The position numbers and the translations under genes were made by a program. This document shows, piece after piece, positions 10,582 to 41,937 of a stretch of DNA of 41,937 nt. Each line of letters starts with the position of its first letter. Within the stretch, counting starts at the first letter, position 1. Under the pieces are notes generated by a model that did no database searches, was not told the DNA's origin, and was given only the letters and a program-made list of their open reading frames with translations. This stretch comes from an uncultured Mediterraneibacter sp. (GTDB lineage: Bacteria > Bacillota > Clostridia > Lachnospirales > Lachnospiraceae): NCBI GenBank assembly GCA_944376695.1, contig CALWDM010000021.1:1-41937 (forward strand). The letters run 5' to 3'.

Positions 10582-11298
10582 CTAAGTTCCCTTCTGTCTC
10601 AGGTCCTGCAGGATCCTTTTCTCCATCCGGGATACCTGCACCTGTGAGATCCCCATCATCTTTCCCACCTCGGACTGTGTCTTGTCGGCAAAATACCGCA
10701 GGTAGATCAGCTGTCTTTCCTGGGCTTCCAGGGATTCAAGGAGCTGCTTTAACACCATGAGATCGAGGAGCTTATCCTCCCGATGCTCCTTTTCTTCAAT
10801 CTTATCCAGAAGGCGGATCTCGCTCCCCTCCTTCTGGTGGATCGGGCGGTACAAAGACTCGATCTCCCCGCCTGCTTCCATCGCCTGCACAAGTTCCTCT
10901 TTTTCCACTCCCAGCTCTTCGGACAGTTCCTCCAGGTCGGGCTCCCTTCCCAGTTTTACATTCAGGCGCTCTCTTGCCTGAAAGCTCTTATAGGCCAGCT
11001 CTTTCAGCGAACGGCTCACCTTGATCATGCCGTCGTCCCTGAGGAACCGCTTGATCTCCCCGGAGATCATAGGCACTGCGTACGTAGAAAATTTCACATC
11101 ATAGGACACGTCAAATTTGTCGATCGCCTTCAGAAGCCCGATGCTCCCGATCTGGAATAAATCTTCCGCCTCTGTTCCTCTGCCGTAAAAACGTTTCACG
11201 ACACACCAGACGAGCCCTACGTTTTCTTCCACAAGCTGTTCTCTCGCTTCTTTATCCCCGGCGTGTGATCTCTGTATCAAAGCGATCGTGTGGTCCAT
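10582..11298 (-). CDS. sigF: RNA polymerase sporulation sigma factor SigF
   Basis: This 238-residue sigma-70 family factor is the first forespore-specific sigma factor. Region 2 includes DLFQIGSIGLLKAIDKFD and KFSTYAVPMISGEIKRFLRD. Region 3 begins at IKVSRSLKELAYK, and region 4 carries the helix-turn-helix SEVGKMMGISQVQVSRMEKR near the C-terminus. It is held inactive by SpoIIAB, encoded immediately upstream with a 22-bp overlap. AAGGAAGGGAACT precedes ATG 11298. Synteny and region 3/4 sequence separate it from SigG, which usually lies beside sigE. Length is near the family norm of about 250. Confidence 0.96.
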   Translation of the reverse strand: MDHTIALIQRSHAGDKEAREQLVEENVGLVWCVVKRFYGRGTEAEDLFQIGSIGLLKAIDKFDVSYDVKFSTYAVPMISGEIKRFLRDDGMIKVSRSLKELAYKSFQARERLNVKLGREPDLEELSEELGVEKEELVQAMEAGGEIESLYRPIHQKEGSEIRLLDKIEEKEHREDKLLDLMVLKQLLESLEAQERQLIYLRYFADKTQSEVGKMMGISQVQVSRMEKRILQDLRQKGT

Positions 11299-11732
11299 AG
11301 TTCCCTTCCTTTTCCGATAGCCTTCTTCATCCTCACCCTTGTCCCCCGGCCGGGCTCTGACTCTACCTCCAGGCTGTCCATAAAGGCTTCCATAAAGGAA
11401 AACCCCATGCCGGACCGGTCCTGCTCCGGCTTGGTCGTATACATGGGCTGCATCGCCTCCCCGACATTTTCGATGCCCCTGCCTTTATCACACACCTCAA
11501 CAGTAAACACATTTTCCTCGATACGGCATCGGATATACACTTTGTTGATCTCATTTTCGTACCCGTGGATGATCGCGTTGGTCACCGCCTCTGACACAGC
11601 GGTCTTGACGTCCGCCACCTCCTCTACGGTAGGGTTGAGCTGCGTGAGGAATGACGCCACCGCTACCCTCGCAAAACCCTCGTTCGCTGACCTGCTCTCA
11701 AACCGGATCTCCATTTCATTTGTATTTTTCAT
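11277..11732 (-). CDS. spoIIAB: Anti-sigma F factor / serine kinase SpoIIAB
   Basis: This 151-residue GHKL-fold protein kinase binds SigF and phosphorylates SpoIIAA. The N box is EAVTNAIIHGYEN, the G1 box is DKGRGI and the second glycine box is SGMGFSFMEAFMD, which together form the ATP pocket. It overlaps spoIIAA by ATGA (11729-11732) and sigF by 22 bp, so the three proteins should be made in linked amounts, as the partner-switch requires. Length matches the family (about 146). Confidence 0.96.
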   Translation of the reverse strand: MKNTNEMEIRFESRSANEGFARVAVASFLTQLNPTVEEVADVKTAVSEAVTNAIIHGYENEINKVYIRCRIEENVFTVEVCDKGRGIENVGEAMQPMYTTKPEQDRSGMGFSFMEAFMDSLEVESEPGRGTRVRMKKAIGKGRELWTTRSL

Positions 11733-37926: not shown

Positions 37927-37967
37927 AGCCGTAAAGACATGCATTAAGAACAGTGGAGATGATAGAA

Positions 37968-38825
37968 TTGAGTGATTTTTTATTTTCCGTATTTCCCAAT
38001 GAAAATTTCGTAGACCTGGGGCTGTACCAGTTCGGCAAAGAACAGTGCCAGCCCGCCCACTCCTTCGGCCCCGTATCCAGGAATCATTACCTCTTCCATT
38101 ATGTACTGTCAGGTACAGGCCGTCTCATGGCAAATGATTCCAAAGGACAGACAAAGGAATATCAGATCAAGAGCGGCCAGGGTTTTATGATCTTCCCAAA
38201 GCAGATCAACACCTACATCGCGGACCAGGAGCTTCCCTGGGAATATGCATGGATCGAATTCGACGGGCTCAGGGCAAAGGAGATCGTCGAGCTCGCGGGG
38301 CTTACCCCGGACCACCCGGTGTATCACGCCTCGTCAAAAGAGCTGCGGGAACTCATGAAAGACGAGATGCTCTACATCGCGGAGCACGGGGACGCGTCCC
38401 CCTTCCATCTGATCGGACATCTCTTTCTCTTCATCGACTACCTGTCCCGCTCCTCTGCGGGCATGCATCTGTCCTCCAGCGGGAAGGTCCGTGATTTCTA
38501 TATTAAAGAAGCGCTGAATTATATTGAACAGAATTTCCAGAATGATATCTCAGTAGAAGGGATCGCGCAGTTCTGCGGGCTGAACCGCACATATTTTGGA
38601 AGGATCTTTAAAGGGGCCGTGGGCAAGTCCCCGCAGGAATTCCTCTTAAGCTACCGCATGACAAAAGCCGCGGAACTGCTGAAGCTGACCCGGCTCTCCA
38701 TCAGCGACGTCGGAAACGCCGTAGGATATCCGAATCAGCTTCACTTTTCGCGCGCATTCAAAAACACATACGGAGTCTCGCCCCGGGAATGGCGGAACCA
38801 GAACCGGATCACTCACAGAGAGTAG
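37968..38825 (+). CDS. AraC-family regulator of the alpha-galactoside operon
   Basis: This 285-residue regulator has an N-terminal cupin-like sugar-sensing domain (HYVLSGTGRLMAND, GQGFMIFPKQINTYIAD) and a C-terminal AraC DNA-binding domain. The latter has two helix-turn-helix units, VEGIAQFCGLNRTYFGRIFK and ISDVGNAVGYPNQLHFSRAFK. It is similar in build to MsmR/RafR activators. TTG 37968 is preferred because GGAG lies 9 bp upstream; GTG 37953 and ATG 37959 in the same frame lack a good site. It is divergent from the transporter operon and most likely activates it when substrate is bound. Confidence 0.9.
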   Translation: MSDFLFSVFPNENFVDLGLYQFGKEQCQPAHSFGPVSRNHYLFHYVLSGTGRLMANDSKGQTKEYQIKSGQGFMIFPKQINTYIADQELPWEYAWIEFDGLRAKEIVELAGLTPDHPVYHASSKELRELMKDEMLYIAEHGDASPFHLIGHLFLFIDYLSRSSAGMHLSSSGKVRDFYIKEALNYIEQNFQNDISVEGIAQFCGLNRTYFGRIFKGAVGKSPQEFLLSYRMTKAAELLKLTRLSISDVGNAVGYPNQLHFSRAFKNTYGVSPREWRNQNRITHRE

Positions 38826-38907
38826 ATCTGTCTCTGGATATTCCATCCCCGCTCTGGTAAAATAGGATCAACAGATAAACCGAAAAAATATAAGGAGGTT
38901 TTGCGGG

Positions 38908-40617
38908 ATGAAGGTCATTGACTTTAAAGATGCAAAATGCCGTCACTGTTACAAATGTGTGCGCAACTGCGCGGTAAAAGCGATCTCAGTCAAAGATGAA
39001 CAGGCGAGGATCATGGTGGACCACTGCATCAACTGCGGCCGGTGCCTGGAGGTCTGTCCGCAGAATGCGAAGACATTTGCCAGCGACATGGAACGGGTAA
39101 AAGACTATCTGCGGCAGGGATTTCAGACCATCATATCCATCGCCCCGTCCTATGCGGGCGTGCTGGAATTCGACACGCCGGGGCAGGTCGTGGACGCCCT
39201 CCAGCGGCTGGGATTCCGGGAAGTGCGCGAGACCGCGGAGGGCGCTGCCCTTGTGACGAACGAATACAAAAAGCTGGTGCGGCAGAATGAAATGCCGAAC
39301 ATCATCACCACATGCTGCCCGAGCGTGAACGACCTGATCGAGAAGTATTACCCGGACTGCGCGAAGCTGATGGCGCCCGTCGTATCCCCGATGATCGCTC
39401 ACGGACGGTATATCAAGAAGATCTACGGGCCGGATGTAAAGGTCGTTTTCCTCGGGCCCTGTATCGCGAAAAAGCAGGAAGCCATCGGAGATGAGAGAGT
39501 ATTTGGCGCGGTGGACGCGATCCTTACTTTTGAGGAGCTGGCGGACTGGCTCCACGAGGAAGGGATCGACCTGCATCAATGCGAGGATAAGCCCATGGGA
39601 AACCCGGATCCGAAGATCAACCGCCTCTATCCTGTGAGCGGCGGCGTGATCCAGTCTGTGATCACAGAAGAGGAGGCAGACGGATACCACAAGGTATTTG
39701 TAGACGGGCTGGAAAACTGTATGGAAATGCTGGAATGTCTCCGAAAAGGCGAGCTGGATCACTGCTTCATCGAGGCGAACGTCTGCGAGGGCGGATGCGC
39801 GAAGGGCCCGGCATCCGCCCACTGGAACACCTCCTATGTAAAGACAAAAGTAAAGATCGAGAATGTCGTATCTTACAAGGCGGCGAGAGACCTGCCCGAT
39901 ATGAGCACAGAAGAACTGGCGAAAGAATTCGGGGACCGCAGTCTGTCGGATATCATGCCGTCAGAAGAACAGATCCGCAGGATCTTAAGGTCCACAGGGA
40001 AATATTCCCCGGAGGACGAACTGAACTGCGGAGCGTGCGGGTATTCCACCTGCCGCGAAAAGGCGGTCGCTGTCTTCCAGGGAAAGGCGGAGCTGTCCAT
40101 GTGCATGCCGTACGCGCTGGCACAGGCAGAGTCCATGTCCAATGTAGTCATGGATGTGACCCCGAACATGATCTTTGTGATCGGCAGCGACATGCGGATC
40201 CTGGACTGCAACCGAAAAGGGCAGGAACTCCTGGGCGTAGGGCACGAAGAGGCGGTCCAGAGATACATATTCGAATTCATAGAGACCGAAGATATCGAGA
40301 CAGCGCTTCTCACAAGAGAGCCTGTGCTGCACAAAAAGATCCAGCTCGAAAACGGCAGGATGGTCGCTGAGGAGACTATCGTGTACATCGAAAACCTGGA
40401 CGCTGTCCTCGTCACATTCCAGGATATAACAAGAGATGAAAAGATCCGGGAACAGCACTATAACCTGAAAGTAGAGACCGTGGAAATGGCGCAGAAGGTC
40501 ATTGAGAAGCAGATGATGGTGGCCCAGGAGATCGCAGGGCTCCTCGGCGAGACGACCGCAGAGACAAAGGTCACCCTCACCAGGCTCAGAGATTCGATCC
40601 TGAACGAGGAGGAATGA
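38908..40617 (+). CDS. Sensory [FeFe]-hydrogenase with PAS domain (HydS-type)
   Basis: This 569-residue protein has a multidomain redox-sensor layout. Two 4Fe-4S ferredoxin motifs come first (C11, C14, C17, C21 and C40, C43, C46, C50). A compact hydrogenase H-domain follows, with L1 TTCCPS (C136, C137), L2 GPCIAKKQE (C185) and L3 NVCEGGC (C293, C297), so all expected H-cluster ligands are present. An FeS domain is next (C374, C377, C382, C399; NCGACGYSTC), then a PAS domain (about 408-515) and a C-terminal coiled coil. L2 and L3 differ from catalytic hydrogenases (no MPC, no MAC). This fits group C sensory hydrogenases, which signal H2 or redox state to an output partner. AAGGAGG precedes the ATG. 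It is coupled to the phosphatase downstream. Confidence 0.88.
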   Translation: MKVIDFKDAKCRHCYKCVRNCAVKAISVKDEQARIMVDHCINCGRCLEVCPQNAKTFASDMERVKDYLRQGFQTIISIAPSYAGVLEFDTPGQVVDALQRLGFREVRETAEGAALVTNEYKKLVRQNEMPNIITTCCPSVNDLIEKYYPDCAKLMAPVVSPMIAHGRYIKKIYGPDVKVVFLGPCIAKKQEAIGDERVFGAVDAILTFEELADWLHEEGIDLHQCEDKPMGNPDPKINRLYPVSGGVIQSVITEEEADGYHKVFVDGLENCMEMLECLRKGELDHCFIEANVCEGGCAKGPASAHWNTSYVKTKVKIENVVSYKAARDLPDMSTEELAKEFGDRSLSDIMPSEEQIRRILRSTGKYSPEDELNCGACGYSTCREKAVAVFQGKAELSMCMPYALAQAESMSNVVMDVTPNMIFVIGSDMRILDCNRKGQELLGVGHEEAVQRYIFEFIETEDIETALLTREPVLHKKIQLENGRMVAEETIVYIENLDAVLVTFQDITRDEKIREQHYNLKVETVEMAQKVIEKQMMVAQEIAGLLGETTAETKVTLTRLRDSILNEEE

Positions 40618-40619
40618 CT

Positions 40620-41795
40620 ATGAGCGTGAGTATCGATGTGGCTTGGAAAAGCCTGAATAAGCAGAACGAAGAACTCTGCGGAGACAAGGTCGAGATCATC
40701 AAGACACAGGATTCGGATATCATGATCCTGGCGGACGGCATGGGCAGCGGGGTGAAGGCAAATATCCTCGCCACGCTGACATCCAAGATCCTGGGGACCA
40801 TGCTCTACGAGGGGGCTGACATCGAGTCCTGCGTGGAGACGATCGCCAAGACACTCCCCATCTGCAAGGTCCGGAAAGTCGCTTACGCCACGTTTTCCAT
40901 CCTCCAGATCTTCCACAGCGGGGAGGCGTATCTGGCGGAATTCGACAATCCGTCCTGCGTCTTCATCCGCGACGGGAAGATCGTGAAATATCCCTATGAG
41001 ACGCGGGAGATCGGCGGGAAAAAGATCCATGAGTACCGCTTCCAGGTAAAAAAGAACGACTGTTTTGTGCTGATGAGCGACGGGGTCATCTATGCAGGGG
41101 CAGGCTCCATCCTCAATCTCCAGGGTTGGACCTGGGAGGCAATGGCGGAATATACGCTGAAATGTACGAAAAAGACCATGTCCGCGTCCAGGCTCGCAGT
41201 GATGCTCAGCCAGGCGTGCGATGAACTGTATGAAGAAAAGCCCGGAGATGACACAACCGTGGCAGTGGCGCGGGTGATCGACCGCAGGGTGGTCAATATC
41301 TTCACCGGACCGCCGAAGTCAAAAGCAGATGACGAACGGCTGATGCACGATTTTATGCATACCGAGGGAAAAAAGGTCGTGGCAGGCGGCACGAGCGCCA
41401 ATATCGCCGCGCGTATCCTGGGCCGGGAGATCATAACAAAGGCGGACAGCCGGAACCCGGATGTACCGCCAATGGCAACACTGGAAGGCATAGACCTGGT
41501 CACAGAGGGCGTGCTGACCCTCGGGAAATGCCTGAAGATCCTGAAAAAATACGTCAATGACGAATTCGATGCTGAGTTCTTTGACGAGCTGGACGCAGAC
41601 AACGGGGCCTCCCGGCTGGCAAAGCTGCTGATCGAAGACTGCACGGAGCTGAACCTTTTCGTCGGCACGGCAGTCAATGCGGCGCATGCAGAATCAGAGC
41701 TGAACTTTGACCTGAGCATGCGGCAGAACCTCGTGGAGCAGCTGATCGCCACGGCAGAAAAAATGGGGAGGACGGTAACTGCCAAATACTACTGA
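40620..41795 (+). CDS. SpoIIE/PP2C-family protein phosphatase with unassigned C-terminal domain
   Basis: This 391-residue protein has an N-terminal SpoIIE-type PP2C phosphatase domain. The metal-binding motifs ADGMGSG (D39, G40), LMSDGV and PGDDTTVAV are all intact. From about residue 222 a further domain follows (FTGPPKSKADDERLMHDF, KKVVAGGTSANIAARILG, and the helical end) that I do not recognise. Such phosphatases next to sensory hydrogenases are thought to be their output. The target phosphoprotein is unknown. ATG 40620 is chosen because GAGGAGG ends 7 bp upstream; ATG 40614, overlapping the hydrogenase stop, is too close. It has no membrane helices, unlike SpoIIE itself. Confidence 0.87.
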   Translation: MSVSIDVAWKSLNKQNEELCGDKVEIIKTQDSDIMILADGMGSGVKANILATLTSKILGTMLYEGADIESCVETIAKTLPICKVRKVAYATFSILQIFHSGEAYLAEFDNPSCVFIRDGKIVKYPYETREIGGKKIHEYRFQVKKNDCFVLMSDGVIYAGAGSILNLQGWTWEAMAEYTLKCTKKTMSASRLAVMLSQACDELYEEKPGDDTTVAVARVIDRRVVNIFTGPPKSKADDERLMHDFMHTEGKKVVAGGTSANIAARILGREIITKADSRNPDVPPMATLEGIDLVTEGVLTLGKCLKILKKYVNDEFDAEFFDELDADNGASRLAKLLIEDCTELNLFVGTAVNAAHAESELNFDLSMRQNLVEQLIATAEKMGRTVTAKYY

Positions 41796-41937
41796 AATCT
41801 GTATTTGCAGGGGGAGCCTTCTTTGTGAATGTGACGTCCGAAAACCGTTGATGTGACGCAGACGTTTTCGCGGCGGGCGGGGATATGGCTCGGGTTCCGG
41901 TTCCGTAATCCGGGAAAGACGTAAAAGGGAGAAAGCA
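41796..41937 (+). other. End of window: no gene, probable ribosome site of the next gene
   Basis: 142 bp without a start codon in a convincing frame. CGAAAAC (41841-41847) and GTTTTCG (41864-41870) form a small stem with no T-run. The last bases, AAAAGGGAGAAAGCA, look like a Shine-Dalgarno, so another gene of the same operon probably begins just beyond the edge. Confidence 0.4.

Follow-up and report, generated by a model that had tools for sequence, protein, structure and literature searches.

A sensory-type [FeFe]-hydrogenase paired with a SpoIIE/PP2C phosphatase: a predicted H2/redox-responsive switch in an uncultured Mediterraneibacter

Contig CALWDM010000021.1 of an uncultured Mediterraneibacter sp. 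was analysed over its whole length of 41,937 nucleotides (hereafter, the window). Close to its right end it carries hydS, a gene for a sensory-type [FeFe]-hydrogenase, followed on the same strand by a gene for a SpoIIE/PP2C serine phosphatase. We propose that the two proteins form an H2/redox-responsive phosphatase switch of the HydDB C3 (HfsB-HfsC) kind, in which the C-terminal tail of HydS docks on the phosphatase, and we give this reading, docking included, a probability of roughly 0.62. The proposal is carried by the constancy of the pair in relatives, by the placement of HydS outside the catalytic hydrogenase groups, and by a HydS tail and a phosphatase C-terminal domain that, across 291 genomes of the class, are private to this pair, one chance-level fragment apart. 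A first-pass annotation of this DNA had proposed a hydrogenase sensor with a phosphatase output. Its core, a sensory-type hydrogenase strictly paired with a PP2C phosphatase, stands; its claim that such an output is essentially unexplored as a class does not, and its suggestion that fermentative hydrogenases are encoded just outside the window is not supported.

The hydS-phosphatase pair and the placement of HydS

As the first-pass annotation had described, the hydrogenase open reading frame (ORF) encodes every H-cluster cysteine, two ferredoxin clusters, a C-x2-C-x4-C-x16-C domain and a PAS domain, and a SpoIIE/PP2C phosphatase with intact metal motifs adjoins its stop (Table 1). In an alignment of 57 HydS sequences, the window protein included, the H-cluster cysteines C137, C185, C293 and C297 are invariant, as are C374, C377, C382 and C399 (spacing x2, x4, x16) and seven of the eight ferredoxin cysteines; the eighth, C43, is Cys in 55 of the 57. 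The genome to which the window belongs encodes HydF and HydG above the model cut-off (those two were searched), and both are needed for H-cluster assembly.

The phosphatase matches the Pfam SpoIIE family over residues 37-221 (61.1 bits, cut-off 25), and its core matches PDB profiles of the SpoIIE phosphatase domains 5mqh, 3t91 and 5ucg; with 46.4 bits it does not reach the cut-off of the SpoIIE equivalog model TIGR02865 (490.8). Among 63 aligned phosphatases, D41-G42, S155-D156-G157 and D212-D213 are invariant, and we take these residues to be the PP2C metal motifs. With the listed start at 40614, the phosphatase ORF and the hydS frame share 4 bases. Since an AGGAGG stands 7 nt ahead of the second ATG at 40620, and most relatives start there, translation probably begins at 40620, two bases past the HydS stop codon.

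The pairing is strict. In the best 80 of at least 587 confirmed relatives obtained by a scan of genome contigs, hydS lies directly upstream of the phosphatase gene on the same strand in 80 of 80 loci, a pair being counted when a hydS frame lies no more than 250 bases upstream; the tally takes in loci where a contig end truncates hydS or where the gene is fragmented (e.g. L086, L098, L121, L133, L153). Many of these loci are contigs of metagenome-assembled genomes, and some offer little flanking DNA. So constant an arrangement is not expected by chance, and the conservation in relatives on which the first-pass annotation had made its reading depend is present. The family phosphatase, full-length or nearly so, occurs in 32 of 37 genomes of the genus (G000-G036) and in 9 of 24 genomes of other families in the order, counting strong matches only (52 of the 61 if weak SpoIIE matches are included).

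Some loci depart from the simple arrangement. In Clostridium ganghwense, two tandem hydS genes stand ahead of one phosphatase gene (L100:6207-10004). In genome G180, the phosphatase gene (L165:8896-10348, minus strand) lies behind a small [2Fe-2S] gene; HydS is not there, the tail match is found nowhere in the genome, and two otherwise common cysteines of the phosphatase (C22 and C84 positions) are changed.

The H-domain of the window protein scores 222 bits against the group B1 model TIGR04105 (cut-off 450) and 115.8 bits against the group A model TIGR02512 (cut-off 405.95), below the cut-off in both cases. A tree of 91 selected sequences was built from the ferredoxin and H-domain region by an IQ-TREE quick search, one sequence having been dropped for length; it holds about every second locus outside the genus, the window and three loci from the genus, and does not include TmHydS and CpI. 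A branch with an unstarred Shimodaira-Hasegawa-like approximate likelihood ratio test (SH-aLRT) value of 93 separates the 53 phosphatase-linked proteins from 13 group A, 18 group B, 5 group D and 2 sigma-54-fused proteins. Groups A and B were labelled through NCBIfam models for examples of each, and group D by the description of M2e in PMC8163306 (without PAS, a hydroxyl residue at the CpI M353 position, a C-terminal cluster), with which the 470-residue protein on contig C3 of the same genome agrees.

The placement as sensory, group C-type, made in the first-pass annotation is thus borne out by tree and model scores alike, the H-domain lying outside the catalytic groups. Of the group C traits, HydS has the H-cluster cysteines, a C-terminal cluster together with PAS, and a position in the tree outside groups A, B and D. 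It does not show the typical loss of the proton-relay Cys of CpI, numbered C299 in PMC10407848: C136 of the window protein aligns with it, and the position is Cys in 33 of 57 and Ala in 14 of 57 HydS. According to the same paper this position is mostly Ala in group C, and because it says "mostly", we treat the loss as typical rather than defining. HydS is probably an H2 sensor and not an H2 producer; the sensory assignment of such hydrogenases has been termed putative (PMC8924675).

Two further proteins (L167:4405-7041, minus strand, and L168:336-2957, plus strand) consist of a group C-like hydrogenase fused to PAS, a sigma-54 activator AAA+ domain and a helix-turn-helix, and both genes adjoin hydABC. 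Such a natural fusion of hydrogenase and transcription factor speaks, in our view, for a sensory role of H-domains of this kind. A description of a sigma-54-fused group C-like hydrogenase was not found in the open-licence literature, judged by titles and abstracts.

The HydS tail and the phosphatase C-terminal domain

Residues 530-562 are the most conserved stretch of HydS, with a mean majority identity of 0.85 over the 57 sequences; the corresponding values are 0.69 for the PF04060 region, 0.63 for the ferredoxin part, 0.52 for the H-domain and 0.44 for PAS. Profiles for the tail, the phosphatase, its C-terminal domain, the group D hydrogenase and its kinase were searched in the 291 class genomes. 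The tail profile, built from 19 sequences over 40465..40617 (threshold E <=0.001), gave 87 matches in 86 of the 291 genomes, and the phosphatase profile (threshold E <=1e-20) also found 86, with 85 genomes in common. Nearly all tails (84 of 87) end no more than 400 bp upstream of a phosphatase match on the same strand. The three exceptions are the first HydS gene of a tandem (G100), a gene at a contig edge (G117), and a genome in which the phosphatase has moved (G155); in G117 only 18 bases of contig remain after hydS, which is why the neighbouring gene was not assembled. G180 is the sole phosphatase genome without a tail match, and the genomes of the sigma-54-fused proteins have neither a tail nor a phosphatase match.

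The C-terminal domain of the phosphatase behaves similarly. Its profile matches 85 of the 86 phosphatase genomes, the exception being G121, where the gene is present only for roughly its first 80 residues; elsewhere in the class sample it finds one chance-level fragment with two stops (G140). Searches with residues 222-393 gave no convincing relative in Pfam (six sequences; best E 0.041) or in PDB (best E 0.027, designed proteins).

Over 90 loci, and with H-domain distances allowed for, tail distances follow phosphatase distances with a partial r of 0.83 for the core and 0.64 for the C-terminal domain (0 of 500 permutations), a co-divergence that is strong only with one divergent clade included. 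Because the occurrence of the two parts is matched and exclusive, because the tail is so conserved and, weakly, because the two diverge together, we infer that the tail is an output element which would dock on the phosphatase and gate it. A degenerate HisKA helix was considered for the tail and rejected: six tails gave no HisKA match in Pfam up to E 5, and the PDB search gave one match only, at E 0.71. No description of the HydS tail, the phosphatase C-terminal domain or the phosphatase target was found in the open-licence literature.

Table 1. Features of the hydS-phosphatase region; nucleotide positions refer to the window and residue numbers to the protein named.
Feature	Position	Strand	Basis or remark
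hydS/hfsB-type sensory [FeFe]-hydrogenase, 569 aa	38908..40617	+	ORF list, Pfam, alignment, H-domain tree
HydS 2x[4Fe-4S]	residues 7-54		Pfam Fer4-type
HydS H-domain	residues 74-301		Pfam Fe_hyd_lg_C, 204 bits, cut-off 22.1
HydS FeS domain PF04060	residues 372-401		cluster C-x2-C-x4-C-x16-C at 374-399
HydS PAS	residues 416-507		Pfam
HydS conserved tail, predicted output element	residues ~530-562
hydS 3' end, encoding the conserved tail that is predicted to dock on the phosphatase	40465..40617	+	conservation, co-occurrence with phosphatase
hfsC-type SpoIIE/PP2C serine phosphatase, 393 aa by ORF	40614..41795	+	Pfam, PDB profile matches; start probably 40620
Phosphatase C-terminal domain, residues 222-393 (~170 aa)	41277..41795	+	private to family in sample
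Promoter-like site TGGATA-17-TAAAAT, TG before second hexamer	38835..38863	+	between araC gene and hydS; weak evidence

Proposed mechanism, gene neighbourhood and rival explanations

In the switch that we propose, the H-cluster of HydS, whose ligands are present in the sequence, would react with H2; the resulting change would reach the tail by way of the H-domain and the C-terminal Fe-S/PAS region; the tail would bind the phosphatase through its private C-terminal domain, its core or both, and gate its activity; and the phosphatase would remove phosphate from Ser/Thr of a protein controlling the expression of hydrogenase and alcohol dehydrogenase. This last step is suggested by published data on Ruminococcus albus and on hfs. 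The R. albus cluster with HydS was 111-fold down in co-culture (PMC6776011), and deletion of hfsA or hfsB raised adhE transcripts two- to threefold, whereas deletion of hfsC gave no rise (PMC5707799).

Several points weigh against this proposal. Genes that are strictly adjacent and inherited together can show matched occurrence even when their products make no contact. Without the divergent clade, which has four members, the partial r of the tail falls to 0.40 (core) and 0.33 (C-terminal domain), and PAS then does no worse (0.38 and 0.36); with the clade included, PAS had likewise given 0 of 500 permutations. In G180 the small [2Fe-2S] protein may be the partner of the phosphatase, since the phosphatase persists there beside the [2Fe-2S] gene without HydS. 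A strain of T. thermosaccharolyticum lacking hfsABCD gave a high ethanol yield when hfsD alone was overexpressed (PMC11837493), so that the phosphatase is not needed for the high-ethanol phenotype. In the group D enzyme TamHydS, H2 did not reduce the C-terminal cluster (PMC13104023), which disfavours a simple electron relay. Finally, some turnover by HydS may occur, since C136 is kept in the window protein whereas the position is mostly Ala in group C.

In the DNA examined, a small thioredoxin-like [2Fe-2S] gene lies near 62 of the 80 pairs and a group A or B hydrogenase near 49 of 80, and many of the loci examined show the gene order small gene, hydS, phosphatase, group B enzyme. In the 31 loci of the window's genus neither the small [2Fe-2S] gene beside the pair nor an adjoining group B gene was found in the DNA examined, and left of the window pair an hfsA-like gene is absent; the hfsABCD arrangement is not seen there, the right side offering only the 142 bases between the phosphatase stop codon and position 41937, where the contig ends. 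Upstream of the pair, hydABC occurs in 6 of the 22 genus loci with at least 6.4 kb of upstream DNA. The same genome has three other PF02906 genes, encoding a 582-residue group A enzyme with hydABC-type neighbours and the 470-residue group D protein on contig C3 (35.6 and 43.1 kb into 84,277 bases) and a 506-residue group B enzyme on contig C17 (22.8 kb into 44,062 bases). All three lie at least 20 kb from the ends of their contigs, and none of the 31 genus loci has a catalytic hydrogenase right of the phosphatase (0.2 to ~10 kb examined); the suggestion that fermentative hydrogenases lie just beyond the window is not supported.

An AraC-type regulator gene (37953-38825, plus strand) ends 82 bases upstream of hydS and is divergent from ORFs that presumably belong to a sugar ABC transporter. 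It was considered as a part of the system and set aside: upstream of hydS in the loci of relatives, blastp gave one weak match of 22% (L058), and the gene looks like a chance neighbour. The promoter-like site of Table 1 is one of 6 in a 4.1-kb region where shuffling predicts 3.2.

One alternative to the switch proposed here is that HydS is a slow catalytic or redox-poising enzyme and that the phosphatase is regulated through the general redox state or the [2Fe-2S] protein, without direct sensing of H2. The Cys at the C299 position would fit this, as would E119, at the CpI E279 position, which is kept in 31 of 57 HydS, and so would the frequency of the [2Fe-2S] gene near the pair and its staying with the phosphatase in G180. 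The rest of the active site points the other way. The window protein has A156 and K122 where CpI has S319 and E282; at the M353 position 55 of 57 HydS have Gly, at the M497 position 51 of 57 have Asn or Ser, and Gly and Ser are reported at these positions in TmHydS (PMC8163306). As the [2Fe-2S] gene is moreover missing from beside the pair in the window's own genus, we hold this explanation to be improbable.

A second alternative involves group D. In the same genome, beside hydABC, genes for a DRTGG protein, a SpoIIAB-like kinase, the group D hydrogenase, another DRTGG protein and a PHP protein are found together (the group D gene preceded by the kinase gene: L005:12429-14294, corresponding to C3:42428-44293). 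The group D hydrogenase and its kinase could phosphorylate the small DRTGG protein and HydS with its phosphatase could dephosphorylate it, two opposed inputs under the control of H2. The kinase gene lies directly upstream of the group D gene in 132 of 139 loci of the class genomes (of the seven others, G071, G109 and G330 begin at a contig edge), the kinase of this genome scores 61.2 bits against the spIIAB model TIGR01925 (cut-off 135), and the genome itself has both arms. The two arms share a locus in L052, and in 4 of 22 genus loci hydABC forms the bridge between them (in L038 the examined DNA stops before the place where a second arm would be); in G155 (L163/L164), the phosphatase heads the row phosphatase-DRTGG-kinase-group D-DRTGG-PHP-hydABC, away from hydS. 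In that genome a [2Fe-2S] gene, hydS and a group B hydrogenase gene lie about 15 kb from the moved phosphatase.

Against these loci stands the class-wide picture. Group D is present in 49 of 86 phosphatase genomes and in 89 of 205 others, a weak association (odds ratio 1.7, p 0.04, kinship uncorrected). Of the 49 genomes that carry both phosphatase and kinase, G155 alone keeps the two within 20 kb of each other; in 10 they lie on one contig at a distance of 200 kb or more, and in 38 on different contigs, where no distance can be read. The synteny of the two arms could be accounted for by common links to hydABC, the partial overlap of groups C and D has been taken as a sign of different functions (PMC10407848), and although the DRTGG and the [2Fe-2S] proteins were both considered as candidate substrates by way of their conserved residues, the DRTGG sets, with 6 and 3 sequences, are too small to argue from. 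With weak co-occurrence and few close loci, a necessary two-arm system is not supported, and the two-arm switch in general appears unlikely. Slightly less probable still is the elaborate version, in which two mirror-image H2 sensors write and erase one phosphorylation mark on the DRTGG protein beside the kinase, the private tail and C-terminal domain serving as contact; if true, it would be a hydrogen-controlled partner-switch made from sporulation-type parts and written in the gene order of G155. A 'histidine kinase-like ATPase' beside TamHydS is already on record (PMC8163306); our data add to it the near-strict pairing of group D with the kinase and the SpoIIAB likeness of the latter.

Elsewhere in the window, an ORF at 11277-11732 (minus strand, 151 aa) matches a SpoIIAB-like kinase profile weakly (46 bits) and has ORFs of fitting size on both sides. 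It probably belongs to an ordinary spoIIA operon, as we assume.

A last alternative, that the HydS tail is itself the substrate, phosphorylated by some kinase at T549, T550 and T553 and reset by the phosphatase, can draw on the invariance of these residues in the 57 HydS, on the hydroxyl residues (S, T, S) kept there by the divergent tails L157-L159, and on the co-occurrence of tail and phosphatase with no other conserved substrate gene seen beside the pair, but is very improbable, as no conserved kinase gene is seen beside the pair either and conservation takes in the entire segment around these residues, a pattern for which a docking surface accounts equally well.

Comparison with known systems

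The signal-transduction mechanism of sensory [FeFe]-hydrogenases was called unknown in 2024 (PMC11376134), and the interaction partners of a group D enzyme were still to be identified in 2026 (PMC13104023). With the HydS tail and the phosphatase's C-terminal domain, both private to the pair, two short, testable parts are at hand for the output of the signal, and the near-strict pairing of group D with the kinase points to a candidate partner for the TamHydS class. Provided that the R. albus and hfs data are read correctly, such sensing would steer acetate versus ethanol and the output of H2 in fermenting Clostridia.

The window phosphatase resembles SpoIIE in its PP2C core. SpoIIE has a membrane part; the window phosphatase differs from it in its private C-terminal domain and in having a hydrogenase as partner.

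The phosphatase output, which the first-pass annotation held to be essentially unexplored, had in fact been described. HydDB defines a class C3, 'Phosphatase-linked (putative)', with the remark 'May sense H2 and regulate processes via serine/threonine phosphatases' (PMC5037454), and T. saccharolyticum has been studied with either hfsB or hfsC deleted (PMC5707799). In the window and in the 80 loci, a group C-type hydrogenase is linked with a serine/threonine phosphatase as in C3, and no excluding difference was found, the assignment being made here from features and tree.

The pair also resembles HfsB-HfsC of Thermoanaerobacterium, a sensory hydrogenase bearing PAS and a serine phosphatase in one operon, and the order small gene-hydS-phosphatase-group B of many loci examined matches the published order of hfsABCD (PMC11837493, PMC5707799). 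By its position the small [2Fe-2S] gene is the probable counterpart of hfsA. The window's genus differs in that the [2Fe-2S] gene and the group B enzyme do not adjoin the pair, the group B gene of this genome being on another contig. Ruminococcus albus also has a HydS with H-cluster and PAS and a putative Ser/Thr phosphatase. Its putative cluster counts eight genes, among them those for a group A1 hydrogenase and an alcohol/aldehyde dehydrogenase (PMC6776011), whereas the window pair lies beside an AraC-type gene. TmHydS of Thermotoga maritima (PMC10055695), compared from the literature only, is likewise of group C, with PAS and Gly at the M353 position (PMC8163306), but has Ala at the C299 position (A131; PMC10407848) where the window protein has Cys. 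The pair thus belongs to an already known class, and what is new is the proposal that the HydS tail and the phosphatase C-terminal domain provide its output step.

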